IMG/VR virus record: IMGVR_UViG_3300048836_001187
Location: 1-31,705 of that record
DNA length: 31,705 bases
Reading direction: 5' to 3' (one strand)
DNA from: a virus
The notes under the pieces were generated by a model, which saw only the letters and a list, made by a program, of their open reading frames with translations, had not been told where the DNA came from and made no database searches. Both the position numbers and the translations under genes were made by a program. Below, one piece after another: positions 9,802 through 28,986 of this stretch (position 1 is its first letter; each line of letters opens with the position of its first letter).

Positions 9802-12140
9802 ATCAGTCGCTCCTTTCGTCTGCGAATCGCGCCGAGCGCGTCGTCCATGGCCGGCGCAAGCCAGCCGATCGTTGCACCGGTATCCGCCACCAGCTGCATC
9901 CCAGCGAGCTGCGGCAGATACCGTCGCACCTCGGAGATCAAAACATCCAGTTTTTGCGACAGCAGGTCGCTCGTGCCACCGAAGCCGACGCTGTTCGGCA
10001 GGTTCGTCAGTACGTCGATCGCGCCCACATCTACGCTGGTCGGGATCGCGCTTTGGATCTGCTTGTTTACGTCCTCCATGGCGCCGGTGAAGCCAACGCC
10101 GACGCTGTCGCCCATGTTCTCGCCGATCCCAACGAACACTTTGGATGGCGAAGCGATACCGAGCGCTTTCTTCGCGCTTTTCACGATACCAGAGAAGAAA
10201 TCGCGCACTTTTGAAGCCAGCCATGAGGCCATGCTCTTGATGCCTTCCCAGAGGCCGTTAACAATATTCTTACCGATCTCGACCATGGATGACACCGACT
10301 GGCCGAGTCCGTTCAATATTGCGGAGATGATCTGCGGCAGAGCGGCGATCAACTGCGGGAGTGCCTTGATCAGACCCAGGGCGAGCTGAACCGTCAGCTG
10401 GATGCCCATGGTCATGAGCATGGGAAGATTCTGTGTAATGAAGTTGATGATCCCGGTGATCAGTTTCGGCAACGCTTCGATCAGCTTCGGCAGTGCGCGG
10501 ATGATCCCCTCTGCTAAACCCGTCACGATCGAAAATGCAGCCGCAAGAACCTTGTCCATGTTATTGAGCAGCGTTTCACAGATCAGCAGCACCGCCTCGA
10601 TGATTGCGGGAATCAGCGTCGGCAGCGCTTCTCCGATACCGGAGATCAGCGACGCAATCATGAGAATCGCTGCTTCAACCAGCGCGGGCAGGTTATCGAC
10701 GATCCCCTCCGCGAGCGTTGTGATCAGCTGCACCGCGCCGTCCGTAAACTGTGGCAGAGCAGTGATTACGCCTTGCAGCAACGTCATGACGATACCGGAC
10801 GCGGCGGAGATCAGCGTCGGCAGATTCGCCGCCAACGCTCCGCCGATCGCGCTCACGATGCTCATGCCAACCTGCACGAATTGCGGCAGGCTACCGAGAA
10901 TCAGGTTTGCAATCCCGCCGACCGTCTCGCCGAGCACGACGGTAATCTTATCGAAGTCGCCGCCCGCTTCCGCTAGTCCTGAGGTGAAGTCTCCAAGCAG
11001 GGAAACGCCGTCGTCCGCAAGCGTCTGAAGCTGCGGTAAAAGAACCGTTCCCATTACCCTCTGAGCCGCTTCCGATCCTTGCTTGAGCCGTTGCAGGGAA
11101 TCGTCGAACGCGCCGAACTTCTCGATCGTTTCCTCGCTCAAAACCGCGCCCATACGCTTGGCTTCATCGGCCAACGCCGCGATACCCTCGCTGCCCTGTG
11201 CGATGAGTGGATTTAACTCCTGCGCGCTCTTGCCGAAGAGCTGCATGGCCAGCGCATCGCGCTCCGTTTCGTTCGCCACCTGCCCGAGCGCGTCAATGGA
11301 ATCCCAGTAAACGTCCTCGCTGCCTCGAAGCGTCCCGTCCGCGTTGGTCACCGATACGCCTAAACGGTCGTATGCCTTGGCAAATTGTTCACTGCCGCCG
11401 GCGGCGTTGGACATGGATTTCACGTTCTTCGCCATGGAGCCGGTCATGGTCTCCAGCGAAACATCCACAAGGTCGGCGGCGTAGGAATACGCCTGTAGCC
11501 GTTCCACGCTCATGCCGGTAATGGAACTTTGCGTCAGCATTTCATCCGCATATGCCGCGGTATTGATCGTCATATCGACCAGCGCTTTGCCTGCCGCAAC
11601 CGCCGCCGTACCGATGGCCACCATGGCTGCACCGAGCGCAACGCCGATCCCTTTGACGACCGAGCCAAGCTGATCGAAACGACCGCCAGCGTCATCTGCC
11701 TGATCGGCTGACTGCTTGATCTCCTTGCCGAATTCGTCCGCCTGCTTCCCAGCAGAATCAAGACCGTTGGCGGAACCTTCAAGCGCTGTTTCATTCGCGC
11801 CAAGCTCCCGCTCCATACCGTTGAGCGCGGCGTTAGCATTGTTGAGCTGAATCTGCCAGGCCTGGGTGCGCTTATCATTCTCCCCAAAAGAAGAAGCCGC
11901 GTTCTGCAACGCGGCCTCGAGGGTTTCGACCTTATCTTTTTGAGCGTCGATCTCTTTTCGCAGGACCTGGTTTCGGGCGGTCAGCGCGCCGACTGATTTA
12001 TCCTGCTTCTCGAACTGGGAGGTGACGAGGTTCATCTCGCTCCCGAGCACCTTGAACGACTGGTTGATCTCGGAGAGCGATTTTCGGAAAGCTTGTTCGC
12101 CCTCAATTCCAATCCTGAGTCCAAAATCGCTATATCCCAT
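9798..12140 (-). CDS. Tail tape measure protein
   Basis: This 780-residue protein sets tail length and helps DNA passage. The N-terminus (GYSDFGLRIGIEGEQAFRKSL, then INQSFKVLGSEMNLVTSQF) is the usual start of Bacillota tape measures. A long coiled coil (about 20-150) and alternating hydrophobic segments follow (about 160-185 and 400-600, with repeated ALPQLI and ALPTLI patterns). The C-terminal part includes the conserved ALGIASPSKVF motif near residue 690. The start at 12140 has AGGAGG twelve bases upstream; a reading 10 codons longer has no ribosome binding site. The last ATGTGA couples it to the distal tail gene. Its ribosome binding site and first codons have an exact inverted copy upstream (12386-12420), which is highly unusual and may control translation. 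Confidence 0.92.
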   Translation of the reverse strand: MGYSDFGLRIGIEGEQAFRKSLSEINQSFKVLGSEMNLVTSQFEKQDKSVGALTARNQVLRKEIDAQKDKVETLEAALQNAASSFGENDKRTQAWQIQLNNANAALNGMERELGANETALEGSANGLDSAGKQADEFGKEIKQSADQADDAGGRFDQLGSVVKGIGVALGAAMVAIGTAAVAAGKALVDMTINTAAYADEMLTQSSITGMSVERLQAYSYAADLVDVSLETMTGSMAKNVKSMSNAAGGSEQFAKAYDRLGVSVTNADGTLRGSEDVYWDSIDALGQVANETERDALAMQLFGKSAQELNPLIAQGSEGIAALADEAKRMGAVLSEETIEKFGAFDDSLQRLKQGSEAAQRVMGTVLLPQLQTLADDGVSLLGDFTSGLAEAGGDFDKITVVLGETVGGIANLILGSLPQFVQVGMSIVSAIGGALAANLPTLISAASGIVMTLLQGVITALPQFTDGAVQLITTLAEGIVDNLPALVEAAILMIASLISGIGEALPTLIPAIIEAVLLICETLLNNMDKVLAAAFSIVTGLAEGIIRALPKLIEALPKLITGIINFITQNLPMLMTMGIQLTVQLALGLIKALPQLIAALPQIISAILNGLGQSVSSMVEIGKNIVNGLWEGIKSMASWLASKVRDFFSGIVKSAKKALGIASPSKVFVGIGENMGDSVGVGFTGAMEDVNKQIQSAIPTSVDVGAIDVLTNLPNSVGFGGTSDLLSQKLDVLISEVRRYLPQLAGMQLVADTGATIGWLAPAMDDALGAIRRRKERLM

Positions 12141-12158
12141 TTGTTCAGTTATCCTCCT
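12124..12158 (-). repeat. 35-bp inverted repeat, copy at the tape-measure start
   Basis: This copy contains the AGGAGG ribosome binding site, spacer, ATG and first codons (MGYSD) of the tape-measure gene. It is identical, base for base over 35 bp, to 12386-12420 on the opposite strand. The match ends exactly at both sides. Confidence 0.95.
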
Positions 12159-12324
12159 TCCCGGCAACAAGTACTGTATTGATTGCTTTTTTCAGCTAGA
12201 CTTCTCGGATAATTATTTGCAGAACTAAATGGTGATTTTTCATTAGGGTGGATGAAAAAGATAAAAATCATTCAGATTCGGATCGGAAAAAAGCATCTTT
12301 GCACTTTCACTGCAACACATCATC

Positions 12325-12352
12325 GTAATAGTTATCCGAGGAGTTTTGTCAA
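12325..12352 (-). promoter_or_regulatory. Candidate leftward promoter for the tape measure
   Basis: The minus strand reads TTGACA (12352-12347), a 16-bp spacer and TATTAC (12330-12325). A transcript would start near 12318, inside the loop of the 35-bp inverted repeat, and so carry the tape-measure ribosome binding site without its antisense copy. The -35 is perfect and the -10 matches at four of six positions. It lies behind a strong terminator, so the tail and lysis genes probably need it. Confidence 0.5.
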
Positions 12353-12364
12353 AATTCCTCGGAT
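12334..12364. promoter_or_regulatory. Palindromic operator between divergent promoters
   Basis: The palindrome has 9-bp outer arms (ATCCGAGGA and TCCTCGGAT) and inner TTTT/AAAA arms around GTC, 31 bp in all. Its centre supplies the -35 boxes of both divergent promoter candidates. Related half-sites TTATCCGAGAAG occur at 12419-12430 and, inverted, at 12201-12212. A dimeric repressor or activator could bind here; it could also be a structured RNA element. No gene in the window is an obvious partner. Confidence 0.5.
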
Positions 12365-12374
12365 TTCCTATATC
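12346..12374 (+). promoter_or_regulatory. Candidate rightward promoter
   Basis: The plus strand reads TTGTCA (12346-12351), a 17-bp spacer and TATATC (12369-12374), with a likely start near 12381. The transcript would carry the second copy of the tape-measure start region and a 23-codon ORF, and could end at the hairpin 12482-12503. Confidence 0.4.
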
Positions 12375-12385
12375 TTCTGAAAGTT

Positions 12386-12420
12386 AGGAGGATAACTGAA
12401 CAAATGGGATATAGCGATTT
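12386..12420 (+). repeat. 35-bp inverted repeat, upstream copy
   Basis: This copy lies 227 bp from the tape-measure copy and in the opposite orientation. On the plus strand it reads as a complete AGGAGG, spacer and ATG followed by MGYSD codons. In a leftward transcript it is perfectly antisense to the tape-measure translation start. Confidence 0.95.
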
Positions 12421-12475
12421 ATCCGAGAAGTGGGATAAATCGCTCGCCAAAGAACCACCTCCCTATAACAAATAG
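12404..12475 (+). CDS. Micro-ORF sharing the tape-measure start
   Basis: A 23-codon ORF (MGYSDLSEKWDKSLAKEPPPYNK) starts at the ATG in the duplicated region, with the same AGGAGG site as the tape-measure gene. After five shared residues it diverges. Its DNA also forms a hairpin (12414-12443, GCGATTTAT and ATAAATCGC arms). It may be a leader peptide, a by-product of the duplication, or untranslated. No family is recognisable at this length. Confidence 0.3.
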   Translation: MGYSDLSEKWDKSLAKEPPPYNK

Positions 12476-12481
12476 CACAAA

Positions 12482-12503
12482 AAAACGACCCGAAGGTCGT
12501 TTT
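12482..12503 (-). terminator. Strong terminator after the diguanylate cyclase gene
   Basis: Read leftward, a 9-bp stem closes on a UUCG tetraloop (ACGACC, UUCG, GGTCGT) and is followed by a run of seven T. It lies 27 nt after the diguanylate cyclase stop. It should end transcripts from upstream and thus cut off the tape measure and everything beyond it from the head-gene transcript. Confidence 0.85.
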
Positions 12504-12529
12504 CATGAAAGAATATGCGAATTTAAGAT

Positions 12530-13879
12530 TTAATGGATCGTAACTTTATCCCTGCCCGAGTTCTTCGAACGGTATAGCGCTTCATCGGCGTTCGTAATCA
12601 ACTCCTGTTCGTTGCTGATCGTGGTTTCCGGCATGGAGTCAAGGCCGACGCTGATTGTTACACCAATCTGATTCTCGCCAAATGATGTCTTGCTTTCCCG
12701 AACGATATGACGTACACGTTCTGCAATCGTAAATGCATCGTTCTTCGATGCGCCAGGTAGTATGACCATGAACTCCTCTCCGCCATAGCGCAATAAAATG
12801 TCGCCTTCCCGAATGCCTTGACGAATCGAGTTCGTGATATTCTTCAAAACCCGGTCTCCGACAACATGGCCATATGTATCGTTCACTTGCTTGAAATGAT
12901 CGATATCAAACATCAGCACTGCAAGCGGCACGCTGCGCCGCACAGACCGTGAGTATTCCTCGCGCAGTCGGATCATGCCAAATCGACGATTCAAAATACC
13001 CGTCAACGGATCAAGCGCCGCGAGCTTCTGCAGCTGCTCATGCTCCAGCGCATTATGCAGCGCAACAGCGAGGCTTTGAGTGAAAATAGCCAGCTGTTTA
13101 AGGTTCTCTGCAATGAATGGAGAGGCTTTTGCTAAAAGGATTACACCCAAGGGAACGTTCTTAAACTTCACCGGCTCTATGATGACTTCATTTGGATGAA
13201 ATCGCGTCAGTGTGCTTTCCACAATAATCTCCGCGGGATATTTGATGGCAATGGTATCGCCTTTTGAAAAAGCCCTTAAAACATGAGGATCTGTCGCTGT
13301 TTCCTTCGCATCTTGTATGCCGAAGGAACGCAGTACAATAATCTCGCCTTCATTCTCAATCAAAATTGCGCCAGCATCTGCTCCGGTACCACTCATCACG
13401 CGATCCAATGCGTATTCTGCGAGCGCGTGCAAGTCCAACTGACTGGAAAAGGCGGCCGTGTATGTTTTAATTTCATCGAGCATGCGAAGCGAGTTTTCAA
13501 ACGATTCGATCAGTTCATCGAAGGCCTGCGCACTCTCCCCAAATTCATCATCCGTATCGACAGGAATGCTGCAATGCTCTGCGCTGCATTCGTCGATCCT
13601 ACCGTTTTCGGAAACCAATATGATTGAATTCTTCACATCCCGCATTTTCGTCGTCAGTACAGTTAACTTGTTCTTTACCGTAACGCGAGAAATCAGAATG
13701 TTCACGAACCCGACGAGCACACCTGCGGCAACACAGCATGAAATGAACAATCCGCTGAACGCGATTGTTTTTGGTACACCAAGCAGGATCATGAAGAACG
13801 GAAATACGATACCAATGAGCAGTCCGAACCCAATCATGCGAATCGACAAACTAAGAAACGTGTTCCGTAAACGCTTCAT
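12530..13879 (-). CDS. Membrane GAF-GGDEF diguanylate cyclase
   Basis: This 449-residue protein makes cyclic di-GMP from two GTP. Two membrane helices (about residues 15-34 and 38-63) lead to a HAMP-like linker (about 64-140), a GAF-like sensor domain (about 145-280) and a GGDEF domain (287-449). The active-site motif is GGEEF (366-370), with metal-binding Asp325 in FDIDHF and the entry motif DPLTG at 290. An inhibitory I-site RxxD (REGD, 357-360) lies exactly five residues before GGEEF, so the enzyme should be active and product-inhibited. TAGGAG precedes the ATG. The gene sits between the tail chaperone and tape measure, where phages normally have nothing, is visibly richer in A+T than its neighbours, and has its own promoter candidate and terminator. 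It looks like an acquired gene for host behaviour rather than for the virion. Confidence 0.93.
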   Translation of the reverse strand: MKRLRNTFLSLSIRMIGFGLLIGIVFPFFMILLGVPKTIAFSGLFISCCVAAGVLVGFVNILISRVTVKNKLTVLTTKMRDVKNSIILVSENGRIDECSAEHCSIPVDTDDEFGESAQAFDELIESFENSLRMLDEIKTYTAAFSSQLDLHALAEYALDRVMSGTGADAGAILIENEGEIIVLRSFGIQDAKETATDPHVLRAFSKGDTIAIKYPAEIIVESTLTRFHPNEVIIEPVKFKNVPLGVILLAKASPFIAENLKQLAIFTQSLAVALHNALEHEQLQKLAALDPLTGILNRRFGMIRLREEYSRSVRRSVPLAVLMFDIDHFKQVNDTYGHVVGDRVLKNITNSIRQGIREGDILLRYGGEEFMVILPGASKNDAFTIAERVRHIVRESKTSFGENQIGVTISVGLDSMPETTISNEQELITNADEALYRSKNSGRDKVTIH

Positions 13880-13955
13880 TTCGTACTCCTATTCCTTTTT
13901 ATAAACGCCATAACGTAAGATAGAGCAAGTTTACCATATACGCTGAGCGGATACA

Positions 13956-13985
13956 ATTGAAAGCAAAATCATATGTTTGTGTCAA
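13956..13985 (-). promoter_or_regulatory. Candidate promoter for the diguanylate cyclase
   Basis: The minus strand has TTGACA (13985-13980), an 18-bp spacer and TTCAAT (13961-13956), about 75 bp before the ATG. The -10 matches at four of six positions. An own promoter would let the prophage express the cyclase in the lysogen. Confidence 0.4.
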
Positions 13986-14005
13986 CATGCTCAAGCAAGC
14001 TGTTT

Positions 14006-14580
14006 CTACAGGAACGATGGCAAAACATCTTCTATAGAATACTCTGTTTTCACGTGGGCGATTCCATGAAACTGCCGGTATGCTTCCCACTGATCAAGAA
14101 GTGCGCCAAGCGGCATGAGCCAAACCTCGCGCTCCGGGCGCCCCAACAGGGTCACCCCATAAAAGATCAGTCGGGCAAACAGCTCTTCGTCACTTGCCCG
14201 ACTGGCGCGTTTTTTAAGGACTCCTCCTCGCTCTCGACATGACGCGCCGTTCCCTTAACCATCGCTTCCATGATCGCGGTCTTATAGCTGGAGAGATCCA
14301 GCGGTGTGGTGAGCAGTTCGACCGCTTCCTCGGTTAAAAGCTCGCGTTTATCGTCCGGCTCGAGCAGGTTATGCACAAGCGTGCTCTGATTGGCAAGCAG
14401 CGTGATCAGCCACACCACCTCATCCAGCGCCAGCTCGAAGTTCTCCGCCTTCATGAGCTTATCGCCCAGATGCTCTAACCCGCCGTAGCGCTTCGCGATC
14501 TCTTTCGTCGCGCGGGTGGTCAGGAGCATTTCATACTCCCGATTGCCGATCTGGATCATCGCGCCTCTGTCGTTTTCCAT
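14006..14580 (-). CDS. Tail assembly chaperone, long frameshifted form (GT-like)
   Basis: A -1 shift at A AAA AAC (14215-14209) joins the first 124 codons of the short chaperone to a 67-codon extension that ends at TAG 14008-14006, giving about 191 residues. The extension reads RASDEELFARLIFYGVTLLG, then PLGALLDQWEAYRQFHG and TEYSIEDVLPSFL. This is the pattern seen in the T part of many siphoviral chaperones and has no start codon of its own. The long form is known in other phages to recruit the tape measure and tail tube protein. Frameshifting is inferred from the slippery heptamer and the well-conserved appearance of the extension. Confidence 0.8.
14167..14580 (-). CDS. Tail assembly chaperone, short form (G-like)
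   Basis: This 137-residue protein is the zero-frame product of the tail chaperone gene. It reads IGNREYEMLLTTRATKEIAKRYGG at the start and then a helical body with LDEVVWLITLLANQS, as in the gpG-like family of siphoviruses. It lies directly after the major tail protein gene, and its ribosome binding site GGAGGG overlaps the end of that gene. The A AAA AAC slippery site lies 14 codons before its stop, so a fraction of ribosomes should produce the longer form. Normally the tape-measure gene would follow at once; here about 1.85 kb with a diguanylate cyclase gene intervenes. Confidence 0.88.
   Translation of the reverse strand: MENDRGAMIQIGNREYEMLLTTRATKEIAKRYGGLEHLGDKLMKAENFELALDEVVWLITLLANQSTLVHNLLEPDDKRELLTEEAVELLTTPLDLSSYKTAIMEAMVKGTARHVESEEESLKNAPVGQVTKSCLPD
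14209..14215 (-). promoter_or_regulatory. Programmed -1 frameshift site
   Basis: The heptamer A AAA AAC is in the zero frame of the chaperone (TTA AAA AAC at codons 122-124). It is one of the most efficient bacterial slippery sequences. The -1 frame stays open for 67 codons after it. Confidence 0.85.
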
Positions 14581-18104: not shown

Positions 18105-18365
18105 TTATTTCTTCAAAAGATTGAGCCGCTGTAAAAGCGGCTCTGCGGGAAATTTCGGTTCGGTTTTCGGTAGCTTGCTCAAGAGCGAATTCGTCACCGC
18201 CCGGCGGCTGAACTGGTAGCTGTTGATTGCAATGCCATCCGGCACACTCGTTTCGCGCGTCAGGATACCGTCCGCGAATCCGAGCTCGATCGCTTTCTGC
18301 GCGTTCATCCACGTTTCTGCGTCCATGAGGTGCGCAAGCTTCGCGCGCGACATGCCCGTTTTCAA
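18105..18365 (-). CDS. ClpP-like prohead protease, exon 2
   Basis: These 86 codons (LKTGMSRAKLAHLMDAETWMNA and onward) complete the protease interrupted by the group II intron. Joined to exon 1 the reading frame is exact: TAT GAG then TTG AAA ACG, giving AYELKTGMSRAKL. It includes the segment HLMDAETWMNAQKAIELGFAD, which supplies the Asp/Glu-rich helix and the third member of the catalytic triad. Reading this part alone would give a truncated, inactive protein. The full spliced protein is 229 residues, a normal length for phage ClpP-like proteases. Confidence 0.88.
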   Translation of the reverse strand: MKTGMSRAKLAHLMDAETWMNAQKAIELGFADGILTRETSVPDGIAINSYQFSRRAVTNSLLSKLPKTEPKFPAEPLLQRLNLLKK

Positions 18366-18426
18366 GTAGAGTAGGGAAAAGCCGCCTTGCCGCCTTTCAG
18401 CGGCAGGTTTGCTTCACCCTCTCCCC

Positions 18427-18460
18427 AAACCGTACTTACCCCTCTCGGAGTATACGGCTC
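18427..18460 (-). other. Group II intron domain V
   Basis: This 34-nt catalytic hairpin starts GAGCCGTATACTCC and ends AAGTACGGTTT with pairing arms GAGCCGTA and TACGGTTT. The last codons and the stop of the intron-encoded protein lie inside it. Confidence 0.9.
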
Positions 18461-20283
18461 TCCATTGTTGTTTGGTCTTTACAACTCTGACGATGTATCT
18501 TTTTGTGACAATCTCGGCATACCACTAATGTTTTTCGCCGTTTGGCTATCATTGCACGTTCCCATGGCTCTTTACCTTTGAGGTCTTTCATCTTGTGGAC
18601 GTGATGAATTTCATAATGGTCACTTTCGATGTTGCCACATAATTCACAGACATTTGCATTTAACCGTTGTTCAAAGGTGTTTCGCGTGCTGCCGTTCATC
18701 AGAGCGGCGTTCGTGATAAAATCGCATGCGCTACGCACCTTTTTGGCTTCGGTGTAATCTGCAAAGTATAATCGCTTCTCCCCGTTTTTTGTTTGATAGG
18801 GAATGCCCCAGTTCCCTTTACCGTCCTGATGTTGACTGACAATTTGGGAAATAGTGCTTTTGTGCTTGCCGGCCATGGTTTTCAAACAACTGTATTCCAT
18901 AAGATAGGCAAAGAAATTCAACTTGCTGAAATTGCCCGCCAAAGAATAATAGTTGCATATTCCCCGCAATTCGGCGTTAAAGGTTGAAACGATTTCAAAG
19001 TCTGTTTGTCTGAACAAAGAAGGTCTTGCGATTGGGAATAGTGTTCCGTCCGCTTTTTGTTCCACCACACCCTTTGAAAACAGGAACTTATGGATTTTAT
19101 CTTCAAGGGGTATTGACAATTCGGTGTTGTTGTTAAGCGTTCGTTTTTTCTTATTTCCCGCCGCTCCGTGTTTGATTTTCCCGTCACGCCGAACACGAAC
19201 ATCATAACCGAGAAAACGCGCGCATTCATTGCTGTGCGTGATAAGCGTTTTTTCTTCGCTGAGTTCCATTTTTAGGGTAATACTAGTAAACTCAGAAAGT
19301 TTGCGCTTTATTTCTACGCAGTCCTCACGATTCCCATTTACGGCGATGAGAAAATCATCCGCATAACGGATATACTTCATTTTCTTATCCGTTTGAGATT
19401 TGCAAGGCGTTTCCAGCAGTTGTTTTCGCCACGCCTGTGATTGTGCAATCAGAGCCGCTCTTTCTTCGCCCTCTGCCATAGTAATTCGGGGTTTGATACG
19501 AGCGCGCCAGCGTTGCAATCGATTGTATTCGGTAGTGTGGTCTTGCGTTGCGGGTCTGTCAAAATCAGCTTTAAGTTTCATTACAAACTTATCCAGTTCG
19601 TGCAGGTAGATGTTGGCAAGCAAAGGCGAGATTATCCCACCCTGCGGCGTACCGCTGTACGTCTTGTGATATTGCCAATCCTCCACATACCCCGCTTTCA
19701 GAAATTTGTAAATCAGTTTTATCAGCCGAGCGTCCTTGACTTTGTTGTTTAGCAAACCCACGAGAACGGCGTGATCGATATTATCAAAGCAACCTTTAAT
19801 GTCGCCCTCAACAAACCATCTTGCGCCGTTAAACTCTTTTTTGAGCGATGTCAAAGCTGTGTGACAGCTTTTGTTGGGTCGAAAACCGTGAGAACAGTCC
19901 AGAAAGACTGGTTCATATACGGCGTCAAGTACCATTCGCAGAACCTCTTGCACAAGTTTGTCCGTAAATGTGGGTATTCCGAGCGGACGTTTCTTGCTTG
20001 GGTTGTTCTTTTTCTCAATGTAGGTTCGCCTTACAGGCGTTGGCTGAAAAGTTTCTTCCGTAAGCGACTTTATGATGTTCTCAATCTTCGCTTTGCTAAA
20101 ACCGTCAGCCGTGTCATCATTTACACCTTTTGTTGCAGCTCCGTTATTGGCGTACAAGTTTTTATACGCTTCATAGTAGAGGTCAGGACGCAACAGATAG
20201 CGGAACAGTTTGGTGAACACTTCTTCTTTGTTCTTGCCAGAGTTATTTCGGATTCTTTCTAAAATATCCGTTGTTGGTTGCAT
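18436..20283 (-). CDS. ltrA: Group II intron reverse transcriptase/maturase/HNH endonuclease
   Basis: This 615-residue intron-encoded protein helps the intron splice and retrohome. The reverse transcriptase domain (about 30-370) has SHGFRPNKSCHTAL (131-144), GDIKGCFDNIDH (160-171), the TPQGGIISPLLANIYLHELD block and the active-site YADD (307-310). A maturase X domain follows (about 385-475), then a DNA-binding region and an HNH endonuclease (CELCG 546-550, EIHH 558-561, CRDCHKKIH 589-597). All key residues are present. The ATG is preceded by AGGGAGGAAA. The C-terminal codons run into domain V, ending MESRILREG. The family is ML-type as in Ll.LtrB and Tn5397. The gene symbol denotes the LtrA-like family rather than a named locus. 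Confidence 0.95.
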   Translation of the reverse strand: MQPTTDILERIRNNSGKNKEEVFTKLFRYLLRPDLYYEAYKNLYANNGAATKGVNDDTADGFSKAKIENIIKSLTEETFQPTPVRRTYIEKKNNPSKKRPLGIPTFTDKLVQEVLRMVLDAVYEPVFLDCSHGFRPNKSCHTALTSLKKEFNGARWFVEGDIKGCFDNIDHAVLVGLLNNKVKDARLIKLIYKFLKAGYVEDWQYHKTYSGTPQGGIISPLLANIYLHELDKFVMKLKADFDRPATQDHTTEYNRLQRWRARIKPRITMAEGEERAALIAQSQAWRKQLLETPCKSQTDKKMKYIRYADDFLIAVNGNREDCVEIKRKLSEFTSITLKMELSEEKTLITHSNECARFLGYDVRVRRDGKIKHGAAGNKKKRTLNNNTELSIPLEDKIHKFLFSKGVVEQKADGTLFPIARPSLFRQTDFEIVSTFNAELRGICNYYSLAGNFSKLNFFAYLMEYSCLKTMAGKHKSTISQIVSQHQDGKGNWGIPYQTKNGEKRLYFADYTEAKKVRSACDFITNAALMNGSTRNTFEQRLNANVCELCGNIESDHYEIHHVHKMKDLKGKEPWERAMIAKRRKTLVVCRDCHKKIHRQSCKDQTTMESRILREG

Positions 20284-20542
20284 TTGAGGGTTTCCTCCCT
20301 AATCAACATTTATTTTAGTACACAACAACTGCGTTCCTTTGCCATTATGACGGCGTTACCGTCCTTGACTACTACGAACGCTCCGTACCCTTGCGGAATT
20401 TTCAGACACTCAATGTCATAGCCTTGCGGCGTTTCCGTTTAGGGTATCCCCAGTTAGCTTTGTTAATAGGTGTGCAGATTGTCGGATATGCTTTTGTTCC
20501 GTTAGCACCGGTTCTCCGGTACATTTCACAAGTTGCGATAAT

Positions 20543-20569
20543 TTATTGCGCTATGAGCTTACGCAATAA
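20543..20569 (-). other. Intron EBS1 hairpin
   Basis: An 8-bp stem (TTATTGCG with CGCAATAA) closes an 11-nt loop whose minus-strand sequence includes CTCATA, the exact complement of the last six bases of exon 1 (20840-20835). This fixes the 5' splice site and predicts the target. Confidence 0.85.
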
Positions 20570-20834
20570 GACTTGTGATAAAGGTTTCAGGCACTTTCCT
20601 TTACTCCACAGCAGGGAGAATTGGGAACTCACATTCAACAAATCCAGTTTTATCCTCATATCTGCTTATCCTCGCGGTTCAGTCGTGTTCGATTGCCTTT
20701 GAACAACTTACCGCTTTCCTGCCGTGCTCTGTTCCCGTGCCAGCTTTCGCCTTTCGGTTAGGCAGGTGGATTACCGCATTATCGTGCGGTGTGATACCTT
20801 AGTTCACTTTTAACAAGACCCTATCTGGGCGCAC

Positions 20835-21263
20835 CTCATATGCCGTAATGATGCTTTCTTTCACCTCATCCAGCATGGCGATTGCCTTCTGCATTTCCTC
20901 CGTGTCGCCGATCGCAACTGTTAATGGATTATGGATCATGAGCAAGCTCGTCGGTGCCATGAGTACCTCTGTGCCAGCCATGGCAATGACCGATGCCGCG
21001 CTTGCCGCAATGCCGTCGATCTTGACGGTGACGTTACCTTTATACTCGATTAGCATGGTGTAGATTTGGCTCGCGGCGACGCAATCGCCGCCCGGGCTAT
21101 TGACGTAGATCACGATGTCACCCTGACCTGCGTTCAGCTGTTCTCTGAAAAGTTTCGGAGTAACATCGTCATCAAACCAGCTCTCCTCAGCAATTACGCC
21201 GTCGATGGTTAAGGTGCGAGTGTTATCTTCGTTTCGCACCCAGTTCCAGAATTGTCGTTTCAA
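20835..21263 (-). CDS. ClpP-like prohead protease, exon 1
   Basis: These 143 codons are the first part of the head maturation protease, a ClpP-like serine protease. Start is TTG with AGGAGG seven bases upstream, overlapping the portal stop (TTGA). The substrate-binding loop VNSPGGD, the catalytic Ser in DGIAASAASVIAMAG and the His in LLMIHNPLT are all in this exon. The gene is then broken at GAG by the intron. Unspliced mRNA would add about eleven foreign residues and stop near 20799, giving a protein without the acidic third catalytic residue. The position between portal and capsid is standard for HK97-type phages. Confidence 0.9.
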
Positions 21264-22631: not shown

Positions 22632-22660
22632 TTGACATTACATCCAGTTGGATGTAATCT
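22632..22660 (+). promoter_or_regulatory. Promoter of the Xre regulator
   Basis: TTGACA (22632-22637), a 17-bp spacer and TAATCT (22655-22660) form a strong promoter reading into the Xre gene. The first operator fills the spacer exactly, so a bound repressor would block polymerase. Confidence 0.85.
22638..22657. promoter_or_regulatory. Operator 1 for the Xre regulator
   Basis: A perfect 20-bp palindrome TTACATCCA-GT-TGGATGTAA (centre bases not paired) lies between -35 and -10 boxes. It is one of two near-identical sites whose centres are 25 bp apart. Confidence 0.85.
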
Positions 22661-22662
22661 TT

Positions 22663-22682
22663 TTACATCCAACTGGATGTAA
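22663..22682. promoter_or_regulatory. Operator 2 for the Xre regulator
   Basis: The second palindrome TTACATCCA-AC-TGGATGTAA differs from operator 1 only in its two central bases. It lies over the transcription start, just before the GGGGGTG ribosome binding site of the Xre gene. Confidence 0.85.
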
Positions 22683-22703
22683 TTTAATTTGGGGGTGTTC
22701 TAT

Positions 22704-25252: not shown

Positions 25253-25289
25253 GCTCGCCCTCCTCAATCTTCACACAGGAGTCCTCATT
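25245..25289 (-). pseudogene. Orphan 3' end of the DUF4314 gene
   Basis: The minus strand reads NEDSCVKIEEGELE and a stop, overlapping the start of the next gene as TTGAGTAA. This fits a DUF4314 C-terminus (GVVF followed by NEDSCVKIEE) and aligns with the DYAVKI codons now found at the interrupted end. I infer that it is the original last part of the gene, cut off by the RIT element. Confidence 0.55.
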
Positions 25290-25312
25290 ATGTAAAGCTC
25301 TACATAATGAGG
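25283..25312. repeat. Perfect palindrome at the RIT left end
   Basis: 12-bp arms (CCTCATTATGTA and TACATAATGAGG) flank a 6-nt loop. Both arms contain a core-like TTATGTA. It lies at the junction between the orphan DUF4314 tail and the left inverted repeat. Confidence 0.8.
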
Positions 25313-25342
25313 ATTATGCGGTCAAAATAGTTATGTAGAGTA
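25311..25342 (+). repeat. RIT left terminal inverted repeat
   Basis: 32 bp beginning GGATTATGCGGTC and ending TTATGTAGAGTA, matching the complement of 28755-28786 at 29 of 32 positions. It encodes DYAVKIVM and a stop in one plus-strand frame. Confidence 0.9.
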
Positions 25343-25383
25343 GCCATCAATAAAAGGCTTTAATATTCGATTTCTTCAATAAT

Positions 25384-25395
25384 TACTCTACATAA
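25384..25395 (-). repeat. Inner left core site of the RIT element
   Basis: TACTCTACATAA is the exact complement of the last 12 bases of the left repeat (25331-25342), 41 bp away. The pair forms an inverted core arrangement typical of tyrosine-recombinase sites. Confidence 0.7.
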
Positions 25396-25405
25396 ATTGC
25401 ATATG

Positions 25406-25433
25406 TTGACATGATGACAGATACTCCTATTAT
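25406..25433 (+). promoter_or_regulatory. Promoter of the RIT recombinase operon
   Basis: TTGACA (25406-25411), a 16-bp spacer and TATTAT (25428-25433) lie directly upstream of a GGGAGG ribosome binding site. The promoter overlaps an in-frame ATG at 25411, so translation must start at 25459. The inner core site lies just upstream, so recombinase binding could repress it. Confidence 0.82.
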
Positions 25434-25458
25434 CAATAAAACGGGAGGTTCTATCATT

Positions 25459-26691
25459 ATGGCAAACGTATCTGAATTAGTTGCTATGGCATCAAAAACA
25501 TTTAAAGAACAAAAATTTTGCGATGCTCTCGTCCGAAAATACGTTGCTATCTGGCGGAAACTGCAGGTTTACGCTCAAAAGTACCGTATTGATGAATTCT
25601 CATGGTACTTGGCTCGGGCATTCCTACAAGAGGAATACAATATTGATATAGCAGGAGACGATATCTATTCGGCTGACTGCAAAAAATTTCATTACACAAC
25701 TGTTCGTCCACTGCTTTATCTTCTGCTTTTACAGAATGACGTCGGATTAATACGAACCACAAAGATTGGCATCATATCGCTTGAATCCTACTCGGAGGTA
25801 CTTGACAGGTTCGTGTCTTCTTGTATGGAGCGTCATCTTAAGCAAAGCACTATAGATAGCAAGCTATGGACAATAAGACCGTTTCTGATGTATTTAAAGC
25901 AAAACGGCGTAGCATCTACATCAGAGTTGAAAACGCTTGGCAAAGAGAAGATATCAGGATTTACGCATTTCCTGACTGTACGCGCATTAAATACCATCTC
26001 AGATAAAGTCAATGCACTCAGAAGCTTCCTCCTGTTCTTATATGAAAATCAGTTTGCTGAACAGGATCTTTCCGTTTATGTGCCCAAGGTTTCAGCAAGG
26101 AAGCAACGGCTTGCACATACATGGACAATCGAAGAGACAACACGCCTGCTGAATGCCATTGAGCGTGGGACATCGGTAGGCAAGAGAGATTACGCCATTT
26201 TTATGCTGGCGATACATTTGGGAATGCGTTCCGGTGATATTTTGTCTCTCACTTTTAAAAACATTGACTGGACCAAATGTTGCATTCACTTCGTACAGGA
26301 AAAAACAGGGATCCCACAAGAGTTGCCACTTAGCGAAGAAATTGGCAAAGCAATCATAGATTACTTAAAATTCGGGCGTCCTGACGATCCAAGCCCTTAT
26401 ATTTTTGTAAGACACACCGTACCATTCGGTAAAATAGACCGATTCTGGTACCAGATGCAAAGATATCTACGCATAGCAAAAATCAGTGTGGAGAGCGAAA
26501 AGCCTCATGGTCCACATACATTACGGTTCTCGCTCGCAACACATATGATGGATGCGGGAATTGAGTATGAAACCATATCGGCAGTTTTGGGACATTCAGA
26601 TCCTGCCTCCACGAACAGGTATCTCCGTGCAGACATTGAAAAGCTCCGCCTGTGTGCGCTTAATCCGGAGGAGGTGCTGGCCAATGCGTAA
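25459..26691 (+). CDS. RIT tyrosine recombinase A
   Basis: This 410-residue protein is the first recombinase of the trio. The N-terminal core-binding SAM-like region (about 105-205) precedes the catalytic domain (about 220-405), with Arg257 in GMRSGD, the box HTLR (353-356), His379 in LGHS and nucleophile Tyr388 in TNRY. An extra N-terminal region of about 100 residues is typical of the A member. GGGAGG lies ten bases before the ATG. The gene overlaps the next by 8 nt. Such enzymes cut DNA through a 3'-phosphotyrosine link. The three are thought to act together, but their division of labour is not known. Confidence 0.9.
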   Translation: MANVSELVAMASKTFKEQKFCDALVRKYVAIWRKLQVYAQKYRIDEFSWYLARAFLQEEYNIDIAGDDIYSADCKKFHYTTVRPLLYLLLLQNDVGLIRTTKIGIISLESYSEVLDRFVSSCMERHLKQSTIDSKLWTIRPFLMYLKQNGVASTSELKTLGKEKISGFTHFLTVRALNTISDKVNALRSFLLFLYENQFAEQDLSVYVPKVSARKQRLAHTWTIEETTRLLNAIERGTSVGKRDYAIFMLAIHLGMRSGDILSLTFKNIDWTKCCIHFVQEKTGIPQELPLSEEIGKAIIDYLKFGRPDDPSPYIFVRHTVPFGKIDRFWYQMQRYLRIAKISVESEKPHGPHTLRFSLATHMMDAGIEYETISAVLGHSDPASTNRYLRADIEKLRLCALNPEEVLANA

Positions 26692-27685
26692 GTCAAATGT
26701 GATTTTTATGCCTGATTTTACAGGCCCAATAGCCGAACATTTGAAGCAGTTCCTTGAGGAGAAGCGGGCTCTTGGTCGTAAATATACATCCGAGTCATAT
26801 AGGCTTCTCCAGATCGACCGAATAAGCAAGGAACTAAATATTGCACCAAACACCCTTCCGAAGGAATTAATTGATGCGTGGTGCGTTCGAACGTTTAATG
26901 AAAGCATTAAGACATGGCACGCCCGGATAACAGTTACAACACAGCTTACAAACTATTTCATCGCCCGTGATCTTCCTTGCGCGAAAACAATGATCCATCT
27001 GGACGGTACCCGAACAAATTCAAAATTTGTGCCACACATTTTCACAGCAGATGAGATAAAGCGGCTGTTTCTTGCAGCAGATGCCCTTAACGCGCCTTCA
27101 AACAGTCCGCACAGAAGGGATGCCGCGTCATTGCTCTTCCGGGTGCTGTATTCATGTGGGCTGCGTCTCAACGAGGCTCTTGCACTTACTGTTGAAAACC
27201 TTGACTTGGAAAATGGCATAATCACTGTAAAGGGCGGCAAAGGGAAGGTTGACCGTTATGCTCCTATGAGCAGAGAACTTACTGTGCGATGTCAGACCTA
27301 CAAAAATAATGTCCTTGATAATGTTAATGATTCCAGTATCTTCTTTGCAGCGCCCGATGGCGGGAAATATGCGATGACAACTGTTTCGTACATGTGGTAC
27401 CAGATATTGAAATCCGCAGGCATACCTAAAAATGAAGATGGTCCTCGCATCCATGATCTGAGGCACACTTTTGCCGTTCATTGCCTGAAAAAATGGGTCG
27501 ACAACGGTGAGAAAATCAACGCATTGTTTCCTGTCCTTTCTAGCTATATGGGGCATGTAAACTTAAACTCAGTCAACAAATATTTGAGGCTAACGGCAGA
27601 TGTGTTTCCTGACATCACCAAACTCGTTGAAAGGCACTATGGGTATATCGTGCCAAACGGAGGGTATGTCTATGAGGAAGAATAA
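26684..27685 (+). CDS. RIT tyrosine recombinase B
   Basis: This 333-residue protein is the second member of the trio. The catalytic domain shows Arg161 in CGLRLNE, a beta-hairpin Lys near 186 (GGKGK), the box HDLRH (257-261), His291 in MGH and nucleophile Tyr300 in NKY. GGAGG lies before the ATG, which overlaps the end of the A gene, so the two are coupled. All pentad residues are visible, so activity is likely. The sequence GKGKVDRYAPM resembles Xer-type integrases. Confidence 0.9.
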   Translation: MRKSNVIFMPDFTGPIAEHLKQFLEEKRALGRKYTSESYRLLQIDRISKELNIAPNTLPKELIDAWCVRTFNESIKTWHARITVTTQLTNYFIARDLPCAKTMIHLDGTRTNSKFVPHIFTADEIKRLFLAADALNAPSNSPHRRDAASLLFRVLYSCGLRLNEALALTVENLDLENGIITVKGGKGKVDRYAPMSRELTVRCQTYKNNVLDNVNDSSIFFAAPDGGKYAMTTVSYMWYQILKSAGIPKNEDGPRIHDLRHTFAVHCLKKWVDNGEKINALFPVLSSYMGHVNLNSVNKYLRLTADVFPDITKLVERHYGYIVPNGGYVYEEE

Positions 27686-28697
27686 TCAATTTCAGTTGCT
27701 GCTCGGTAGCTTCCTGAGTGAATATCTGCCCAGTCAGCGAAACTTCAGTACTAACACGATTTCGTCCTATTGCGATGCCTTTAGGCTTTTTTTAGCCTTC
27801 TTGAAATCGGGCAAAGGAATCGAACCTAATCAGGTCAAATTTAAAGATGCAGACCGTGAAACCGTAACCTCATTTCTGAACTGGCTTGAAACGGAAAGAA
27901 AGTGTTCCGCTTCGACAATAAATCAGCGATTGGCAGCCATACACTCCTTTTACAAATATGTCCAAGGTGAAGAACCACAGTTAATAAGCTTATGTCAACA
28001 GACGCTGAACATTCCTAATCGCAAATCTCCTGAAAAGTATGTATCATATCTTGGCAAGGAAGACCTTGAGCTGATATTACGACAGCCCGACACAACGACG
28101 AGCAAAGGGCGCCGGGATCTGACTTTGCTTTGTGTTCTTTATGATACCGGTGGCCGCGTGCAGGAGATAGCCGATCTCACTGTATCGTCCGTAAGACTGC
28201 AGGCACCGGCACAGATAAAGCTGGTCGGTAAAGGGAACAAAACGCGCATTGTCCCATTAATGGAACAGACAACAATTCTGCTATCGAGTTACATGCAGAA
28301 GAGCAATTTACTGTACGGGCAGTCAAACGAGCATCCTGTCTTTTTTAATCATAGGCATGAGGCACTAACAAGATCCGGAATTGGATATATCCTGCAGAAA
28401 TATGCGGCAGCTGCACGAAACGCACAGCCTACCATTCCGGAAAAAGTTACACCCCATATTCTGCGCCATTCGAAAGCGATGCATTTGCTTGAAGCAGGCG
28501 TAAACATAGTCTACATACGTGACATACTTGGTCATGTTAACATCGCCACAACTGGAATTTATGCACGTTCTAATCTGGAAATGAAGCGCAAAGCTCTAGA
28601 AAAGGTTGCGTTTATTCCCGATGTAAGCGCGGTTCCCTTCTGGACAGAGGATAAGGATTTACTATCTTGGCTTGAAGGGTACGGCAAATCTCTGTAA
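27672..28697 (+). CDS. RIT tyrosine recombinase C
   Basis: This 341-residue protein is the third member. It has an N-terminal core-binding domain (about 5-105) and a catalytic domain with Arg162 in GGRVQE, Lys187 in GKGNKTR, the box HILRH (262-266), His288 in LGHVN and nucleophile Tyr297 in TGIY. This is the most Xer-like of the three. The ATG is preceded by GGAGGG and overlaps the B gene by 14 nt. All catalytic residues are present. The stop lies about 57 bp before the right inverted repeat. Confidence 0.9.
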   Translation: MRKNNQFQLLLGSFLSEYLPSQRNFSTNTISSYCDAFRLFLAFLKSGKGIEPNQVKFKDADRETVTSFLNWLETERKCSASTINQRLAAIHSFYKYVQGEEPQLISLCQQTLNIPNRKSPEKYVSYLGKEDLELILRQPDTTTSKGRRDLTLLCVLYDTGGRVQEIADLTVSSVRLQAPAQIKLVGKGNKTRIVPLMEQTTILLSSYMQKSNLLYGQSNEHPVFFNHRHEALTRSGIGYILQKYAAAARNAQPTIPEKVTPHILRHSKAMHLLEAGVNIVYIRDILGHVNIATTGIYARSNLEMKRKALEKVAFIPDVSAVPFWTEDKDLLSWLEGYGKSL

Positions 28698-28700
28698 TTA

Positions 28701-28712
28701 TTATGCGGAGTA
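28701..28712 (+). repeat. Inner right core site of the RIT element
   Basis: TTATGCGGAGTA resembles the core TTATGTAGAGTA with two changes and is inverted relative to the outer site (28755-28766). The wider repeat (28697-28714 against 28752-28769) matches at most positions. Confidence 0.6.
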
Positions 28713-28718
28713 AATTAG

Positions 28719-28747
28719 AGGAAGTGCGTGTCAAACACACACTTCCT
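28719..28747. other. Hairpin between RIT recombinase C and right end
   Basis: A 13-position stem with one mismatch (arms AGGAAGTG and CACTTCCT outside) and a 3-nt loop lies between the two right core sites. It could end the recombinase transcript or be part of a structured recombination site. It lacks a long T tract. Confidence 0.6.
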
Positions 28748-28754
28748 AATCGTT

Positions 28755-28786
28755 TACTCTACATAATAATTTTCACCGCATAATCC
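28755..28786 (-). repeat. RIT right terminal inverted repeat
   Basis: 32 bp, the complement of the left repeat at 29 positions. On the minus strand it encodes the last residues DYAVKIIM and TAG stop of the DUF4314 reading frame. Confidence 0.9.
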
Positions 28787-28986
28787 ACGTTGAAAACTAC
28801 GCCGAGGGTGCTTCCGTTGCTCCATTTCGCAAAAATGGTACCAGCATCATCAACCCAAGTAACGACCCCGATGGTGCCTGCTGGAATGTGTGTGTAGGGG
28901 TCGTTCATGTGTACCAGCCGCACCTTCGTACCAGGCTTGTAATATTCTTTGAGCTGTTTCAGCAGCTCCGGATGAATTCCGTTCAT
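28759..28986 (-). CDS. DUF4314 protein with RIT-supplied C-terminus
   Basis: This 75-residue protein matches DUF4314, a small SH3-like domain found beside terminase genes in Bacillota phages: GTKVRLVHMNDPYTHIPAGTIGVVTWVDDAG, then IFAKWSNGSTLGVVF. The final residues (DYAVKIIM) and TAG lie inside the RIT right repeat, so the natural end has been replaced. The original end is probably the orphan NEDSCVKIEEGELE on the other side of the element. Start overlaps the upstream stop (ATGA). The molecular function of the family is unknown. The core domain seems intact, so the protein may still work. Confidence 0.82.
   Translation of the reverse strand: MNGIHPELLKQLKEYYKPGTKVRLVHMNDPYTHIPAGTIGVVTWVDDAGTIFAKWSNGSTLGVVFNVDYAVKIIM

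Follow-up and report, generated by a model that had tools for sequence, protein, structure and literature searches.

RIT (recombinase in trio) elements are mobile elements that were reportedly the subject of work by Ricker et al. in 2013. They consist of the tyrosine recombinase genes ritA-B-C within approximately 3.5 kb, with terminal inverted repeats of ~28–34 bp and overlapping palindromes next to ritA and ritC (PMC3414803, PMC10214605). According to PMC3414803, RIT mobility had at that time no experimental data behind it, and the sites at which the elements end were unclear.

The window, meaning the whole stretch of DNA analyzed here, is a virus record of its own of 31,705 bases. It very probably contains a miniature, non-autonomous RIT element, which has been inserted in codons 3–5 of the tape-measure protein (TMP) gene, with the start of this gene having been rebuilt from the element's own end (Table 1). 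Three adjacent tyrosine recombinases, a length of ~3.5 kb, terminal repeats and palindromes are all features of its complete relatives, whereas the copy in the window differs from RIT elements in having no recombinase genes. It also differs in its target, the first codons of a phage TMP gene, and in having terminal repeats that hold an outward-directed ribosome binding site (RBS) and start codon. MITEs are similar in being short and non-coding, in having ends in common with an autonomous partner and in the similar size of their copies. However, MITEs are derived from DNA transposons, while the partner here is a tyrosine-recombinase element rather than one with a DDE transposase; one conserved gene is targeted, and in place of a classical target duplication there is an 8-bp match that looks like a recombination core.

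Invertible promoter switches of the fim/hin type have short inverted repeats around a promoter segment which occurs in two orientations, and the present locus likewise has short inverted repeats and a promoter-like segment in two orientations. Here, however, the repeats carry coding starts, the record has no dedicated invertase and the orientations are known from separate contigs. Integrative elements such as tRNA-targeting islands and SpyCI at mutL restore the gene that they enter. The likeness is that what the target gene has lost is provided again by an element end, the difference being that here both ends resupply a 5′ start and RBS, with orientation irrelevant. While RIT elements are known already, the TMP-start subfamily, its start-donating ends and its miniature of near-fixed size look undescribed. 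The open-access literature searched gave no description of a RIT subfamily restricted to the TMP starts of phages, nor of ends donating an RBS and start codon, and no miniature tyrosine-recombinase element of nearly fixed size was found in it.

Table 1. Coordinates of the putative miniature RIT element and adjoining features in the window.
Feature	Position	Strand	Remarks
TMP gene, 780 aa	9801–12140	−	Current start MGYSDFGL, from element end
Complete insertion, 313 bp, counting the 8-bp AGCGATTT common to the target once	12124–12436		Empty site in relatives
TMP-side terminal inverted repeat (arm)	12124–12158	−	RBS AGGAGG; ATG GGA TAT and AGC GAT TT codons
Spacer, 227 nt	12159–12385		Orientation opposite to the spacers of L015 and L037 (alignment against shuffles)
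Subterminal motif TTATCCGAGAAGT	12200–12212	−	Starts 55 bp inside GGAGG of the TMP-side arm
Subterminal motif TTATCCGAGGAGT	12332–12344	+	Starts 55 bp inside GGAGG of the upstream arm
Second terminal inverted repeat (arm)	12386–12420	+	RBS/ATG/MGYSDL content; outward-facing, away from TMP
Junction palindrome AGCGATTTATCC-GAGAAGTG-GGATAAATCGCT	12413–12444		Two half-sites with 8-bp core; on the outer side of the upstream arm
Displaced original TMP start, GGGAGGTGGTTCT TTG GCG AGC GAT TT	12437–12463	−	Matches TMP start of element-free relatives

The two arms form the perfect 35-bp inverted repeat reported in the earlier note (35/35 nt complementary), and we estimate the chance expectation of such a pair in 31.7 kb at ~1e-12. 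It had also been noted, correctly, that one arm holds the RBS (AGGAGG), the ATG (12140–12138) and the first codons of the TMP ORF (MGYSDF). The other arm encodes only a 23-codon ORF, MGYSDLSEKWDKSLAKEPPPYNK. This ORF (12404, + strand) was considered as a small protein gene with an RBS and terminator, and was rejected as being the inverted arm entering the reversed old TMP start; its frame meets other stops in L015, L037, L048 and others.

Both arms of the window rest on one assembly, with one arm being reproduced exactly by L015, the only other viral contig to possess the exact 35-mer (in single copy). This phage is also represented by the contigs L007 and L016 (one sample), in which 12141–12529 is absent. 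Their ends (12530 and 12140) were examined as a possible assembly break at the repeat, but they coincide with gene boundaries and probably reflect trimming. The perfect identity over 35 bp, the sharp ends and the origin of the record in a metagenome assembly would suit an assembly chimera or a polymerase template-switch product, either of which would have newly duplicated the TMP start in inverted form. Such an origin is extremely improbable, given that homologous arrangements with diverged arms occur in seven other independent contigs, that 3.5-kb versions occur in genomes and that an ordered outer junction is found together with a displaced start. The chimera that the earlier note had named as its refutation is contradicted by the same contigs.

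Searching relatives for the repeat, as had been proposed in that note, located the arms both in seven other miniature elements and 3.5 kb apart around recombinase trios. A degenerate arm pattern (GGAGGATAACNNNACNNATGGGATAT) gave matches in 22 viral and 9 bacterial/genome contigs. In five of these (L104, L105, L121, L125, and L128, the last being from Youngiibacter fragilis), outward-facing arms lie 3481–3521 bp apart and enclose the three adjacent tyrosine recombinases (PF00589) that characterize RIT elements. Their length, their palindromes and their near-perfect end repeats of up to ~95–106 bp agree with those of RIT elements as well, and most have 0–1 differences between their arms. The catalytic R, H-x-x-R-H, H, and Y columns are invariant in the RitC alignment, and the ritA ORF of L125 is shortened by a stop or frameshift. 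A RitC search of Clostridia genomes gave 23 matches in 19 genomes, at loci too short for ends to be read, and a RitA search of the phage collection gave distant matches only.

Eight miniature elements were identified (in the window, L015, L037, L048, L101, L109, L113, and L119), with arms 281–293 bp apart. They resemble MITE-like derivatives in that similar-sized copies occur at comparable sites for which relatives have empty sites, and the window copy does so also in the homology of its ends to an autonomous element. Alignment shows that the arms and ~95 bp at either end share homology with the termini of complete RITs found at the same place in TMP of other phages and prophages. The upstream end of the window copy matches both termini of the L105 RIT at 79–82% over 87–96 bp (E 1e-19), and the L109 miniature matches the ritC end of L104 and L128 over 89 bp at 90%. 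A TTATCCGAG-like motif starting 54–56 bp inside GGAGG is found at every end of the complete and miniature elements (26/26); the TTATCCGAGGAGT copy in the window is the left half of a palindrome, TCCGAGGA..TCCTCGGA. As the 313 bp of the window copy contain no recombinase ORF, it is classed as a non-autonomous derivative and not as a RIT. In six of the eight miniatures the spacer is 227–228 nt, a strictness that may point to a function and that simple internal deletion does not account for. Outside close pairs, the spacers of the miniatures are only ~55–60% alike, yet their length is nearly fixed.

A joined empty site is present in the close relatives L017, L021, and L022, in which the older start runs directly into TMP. 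Matched against these relatives, the two halves of the window overlap by 8 bp, AGCGATTT, from which the limits of the inserted DNA follow. The TMP of element-free L022 starts with GGGAGGTGGTCCTTTGGCAAGCGATTTCGGC, and the older start is kept upstream of the outer arm as GGGAGGTGGTTCTTTGGCGAGCGATTT in the window and as GAGGAGGTGATTCATTGGCATCCGACTT in L015. At the outer junction the old TMP start runs to GAYTT and is followed by ATCC, an 8-bp block (N8), GGAT and the reverse complement of the arm; at the inner junction the arm, again running to GAYTT, is joined to the rest of TMP. The outer junctions of related RITs have the layout of the palindrome in the window. The N8 block occurs in both senses, being GAGATGTA in L037 and L048 and the reverse in L015. 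Both the junction palindrome (12413–12444) and the older TMP start (12463–12437, − strand) had escaped the earlier note.

Each arm carries, facing outwards, an RBS, ATG GGA TAT and two codons, so that an in-frame start is restored whichever way round the element inserts. An in-frame TMP ORF starts in 28 of the 47 arms that were inspected, which is to say in all of the TMP-side arms (28/28); the remaining 19 either stop at a contig end or have the displaced start on the far side of the junction palindrome. None of the arms found by the pattern lies outside a TMP-start location. The 28 in-frame TMPs have an N-terminus of MGY, two residues (SD, DN, DT, etc.) and FGL[KR].G.EGE or close variants; because the search pattern fixes ATG GGA TAT and not what comes after, the in-frame fusion is a genuine result. 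The consensus of the 26 paired ends is ..AGGAGgaTAac...Ac..ATgGGATAT....a (upper case invariant), in which the RBS, the start and two codons are kept and the intervening bases vary. An empty site, a displaced start, outward units of RBS, ATG and MGY(SD/DN), in-frame TMP copies and both orientations were all observed. Solo end scars were also noted in eight contigs without the element (L097, L098, L103, L107, L124, L126, L127, and L129), the TMP of which uses the donated RBS and ATG GGA TAT. By our reading, the first five of these have undergone deletion between CTCGGAT repeats, and in L126, L127, and L129 other DNA is found upstream of the donated start.

According to the proposed mechanism, the RitA, RitB, and RitC tyrosine recombinases of a complete RIT would act in trans on the miniature; we infer this mobilizer, as no complete RIT bearing these ends was found in the window record. 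Cutting would take place at the GAYTT/TTATCC junction, with GAYTT in TMP as the putative target. A circular form would integrate, its joined ends making a two-arm palindrome around the 8-bp (N8) core, which is a plausible attachment site for tyrosine recombinases. With the RBS and start restored by whichever end faces TMP, the protein would lose no more than a few N-terminal residues on insertion, and the phage would keep its tail. That the arms pair perfectly as RNA would be a by-product of their being terminal inverted repeats, with any effect on TMP translation from read-through transcripts being incidental.

The earlier note had instead proposed a switch in which the 35-bp stem closes the TMP start, leaving TMP to be made from transcripts that originate within the segment; in such an RNA lock the pairing itself would be selected. 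Pairing of the arms in a leftward read-through transcript is indeed possible, with the predicted fold of transcript 12450–12100 (− strand) having an energy of −118.7 kcal/mol (z −7.1) and being closed by the arms, and a transcript starting at 12320 does escape it in prediction, its structure not being unusual (z 0.14). The stem is also strong, with a duplex energy of −60 kcal/mol in the window as against −27 to −48 kcal/mol in the other miniatures. These others keep the element, however, despite arm mismatches at 3, 6, 8, 9, 10, 10, and 11 of the 35 positions (8/35 in L015) where the window has 0, and no compensatory change was seen in the arms of the seven homologous miniatures, which does not fit a cis-acting RNA switch. 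Since arm complementarity is not conserved among the miniatures, perfect pairing is not what selection preserves; the conserved features of the ends are the outward-facing sequences of the individual arms (AGGAG, ATG GGA TAT) along with the subterminal motifs. It also counts against an RNA lock that arms of like sequence lie 3.5 kb apart around recombinase genes and that the eight solo-arm TMPs use the same RBS and ATG. The internal promoter that it would need (TTGACA-N16-TATTAC, by our reading) is weak, was not reported by a consensus promoter scan and lies inside the repeat conserved as an element end. A selected switch tying TMP translation to the origin of the transcript is thus unsupported and we consider it very unlikely. 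For the perfect arm identity of the window copy, recent insertion or conversion is the best explanation. It is possible that read-through transcripts of all these elements would fold, with an incidental effect on TMP translation.

Both orientations occur among complete and miniature elements. L104 and L125 have a recombinase trio that points towards TMP, and in L105, L121, and L128 the trio points away from TMP. When flipped, the window spacer scores 34 and 35 against those of L015 and L037, as compared to −4 and 0 in the same orientation and at most −24 for shuffles, while the L015 and L037 spacers have the same sense (score 113). The L119 spacer is likewise flipped relative to L101 and L113. 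In L015, the promoter-like piece (window 12327–12412) lies against TMP rather than the upstream arm. As L015 and L037 have equal spacer orientation and exchanged arm types, at least two recombination events are needed. These opposites were seen between different contigs (assemblies), and both orientations are consistent with insertion either way, with in-place inversion, or with both.

The flippable segment that had been offered as an alternative in the earlier note therefore stands in part, in that the spacer is reversed in L015 and L037 and the arms are the ends of a recombinase element, although orientation may be set at insertion. The recombinases it mentioned are also present but are of other types: two are large serine recombinases, and the others form a RIT trio whose terminal repeats are different. 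In an invertible start/promoter cassette, recombinases would flip the 227-bp spacer in place and TMP along with the downstream tail/lysis genes would be phase-variable. The differing spacer orientation among close relatives, the re-linking of arm type and spacer side between L015 and L037, the nearly fixed spacer length and the valid TMP start always encoded by both arms favor such a cassette. We nonetheless regard it as unlikely, as insertion either way gives both orientations too, as it does in complete RITs, and the record has no recombinase with matching ends. The flip would turn a promoter-like end (TTGTCA-N17-TATATC, ~12347–12375) towards TMP or away from it, but this match is not conserved at all ends. 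There is also a small chance that a miniature RIT has been domesticated as a start cassette of this kind, with RIT recombinases flipping the 227–228-nt spacer and late tail-gene expression being phase-variable; a flip would then alter only the promoter and leader before TMP, because both arms carry identical RBS/ATG. Insertion of a miniature RIT is the reading that we prefer.

The gap between the tail-assembly gene and TMP was also observed to be a cargo hotspot (window 12437–14165, L010 5436–6900, L015 3831–5175, and the end of L008), with cassettes closed by a terminator, after which comes the TMP RBS. The cargo in the window is a GGDEF diguanylate cyclase, and that of L010/L011 a GGDEF protein, a PTPS-like enzyme and a Fur-family regulator, with a duplicated TMP start. 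L015 has a methyltransferase and an ORF of no assigned identity, and the end of L008 has a putative transposase start. Elsewhere in the window (18105–21263), a group II intron reverse transcriptase/maturase (18436–20283) lies between pieces of a Clp-type protease gene (20799–21263 and 18105–18365). A perfect 21-bp inverted repeat with a 5-nt loop (ATTACATCCAGTTGGATGTAA, 22637–22683), which could be an operator, lies between the start of a portal-protein-like ORF and a small ORF that by eye is helix-turn-helix-like.

The RIT trio of the window belongs to a second, complete RIT at ~25278–28792, having three tyrosine recombinases (25411–28697) and terminal repeats unrelated to those of the miniature. 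Its insertion site is the 3′ end of a DUF4314 gene, for which empty sites are present in G008, G012, and G013. The uninterrupted gene ends with GVVFGEDECVKIEEGEFE and a stop codon (e.g., G012). That of the window ends with GVVFNVDYAVKIIM and a stop codon inside the terminal repeat, and so the second RIT also resupplies the broken end of its target, in this case the C-terminus and stop codon.

RIT elements are widespread, yet their targets and movement are poorly known. In the present family the ends are clear, the junction palindrome is defined, an empty site and both orientations are available and there is a miniature partner, so that the reaction becomes testable using a 300-bp substrate. 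For the phage, the finding would mean that a mobile element spares an essential gene by carrying the translation start of that gene in both of its ends, and the comparable act of the second RIT at the 3′ end of another gene suggests that this is a general strategy.
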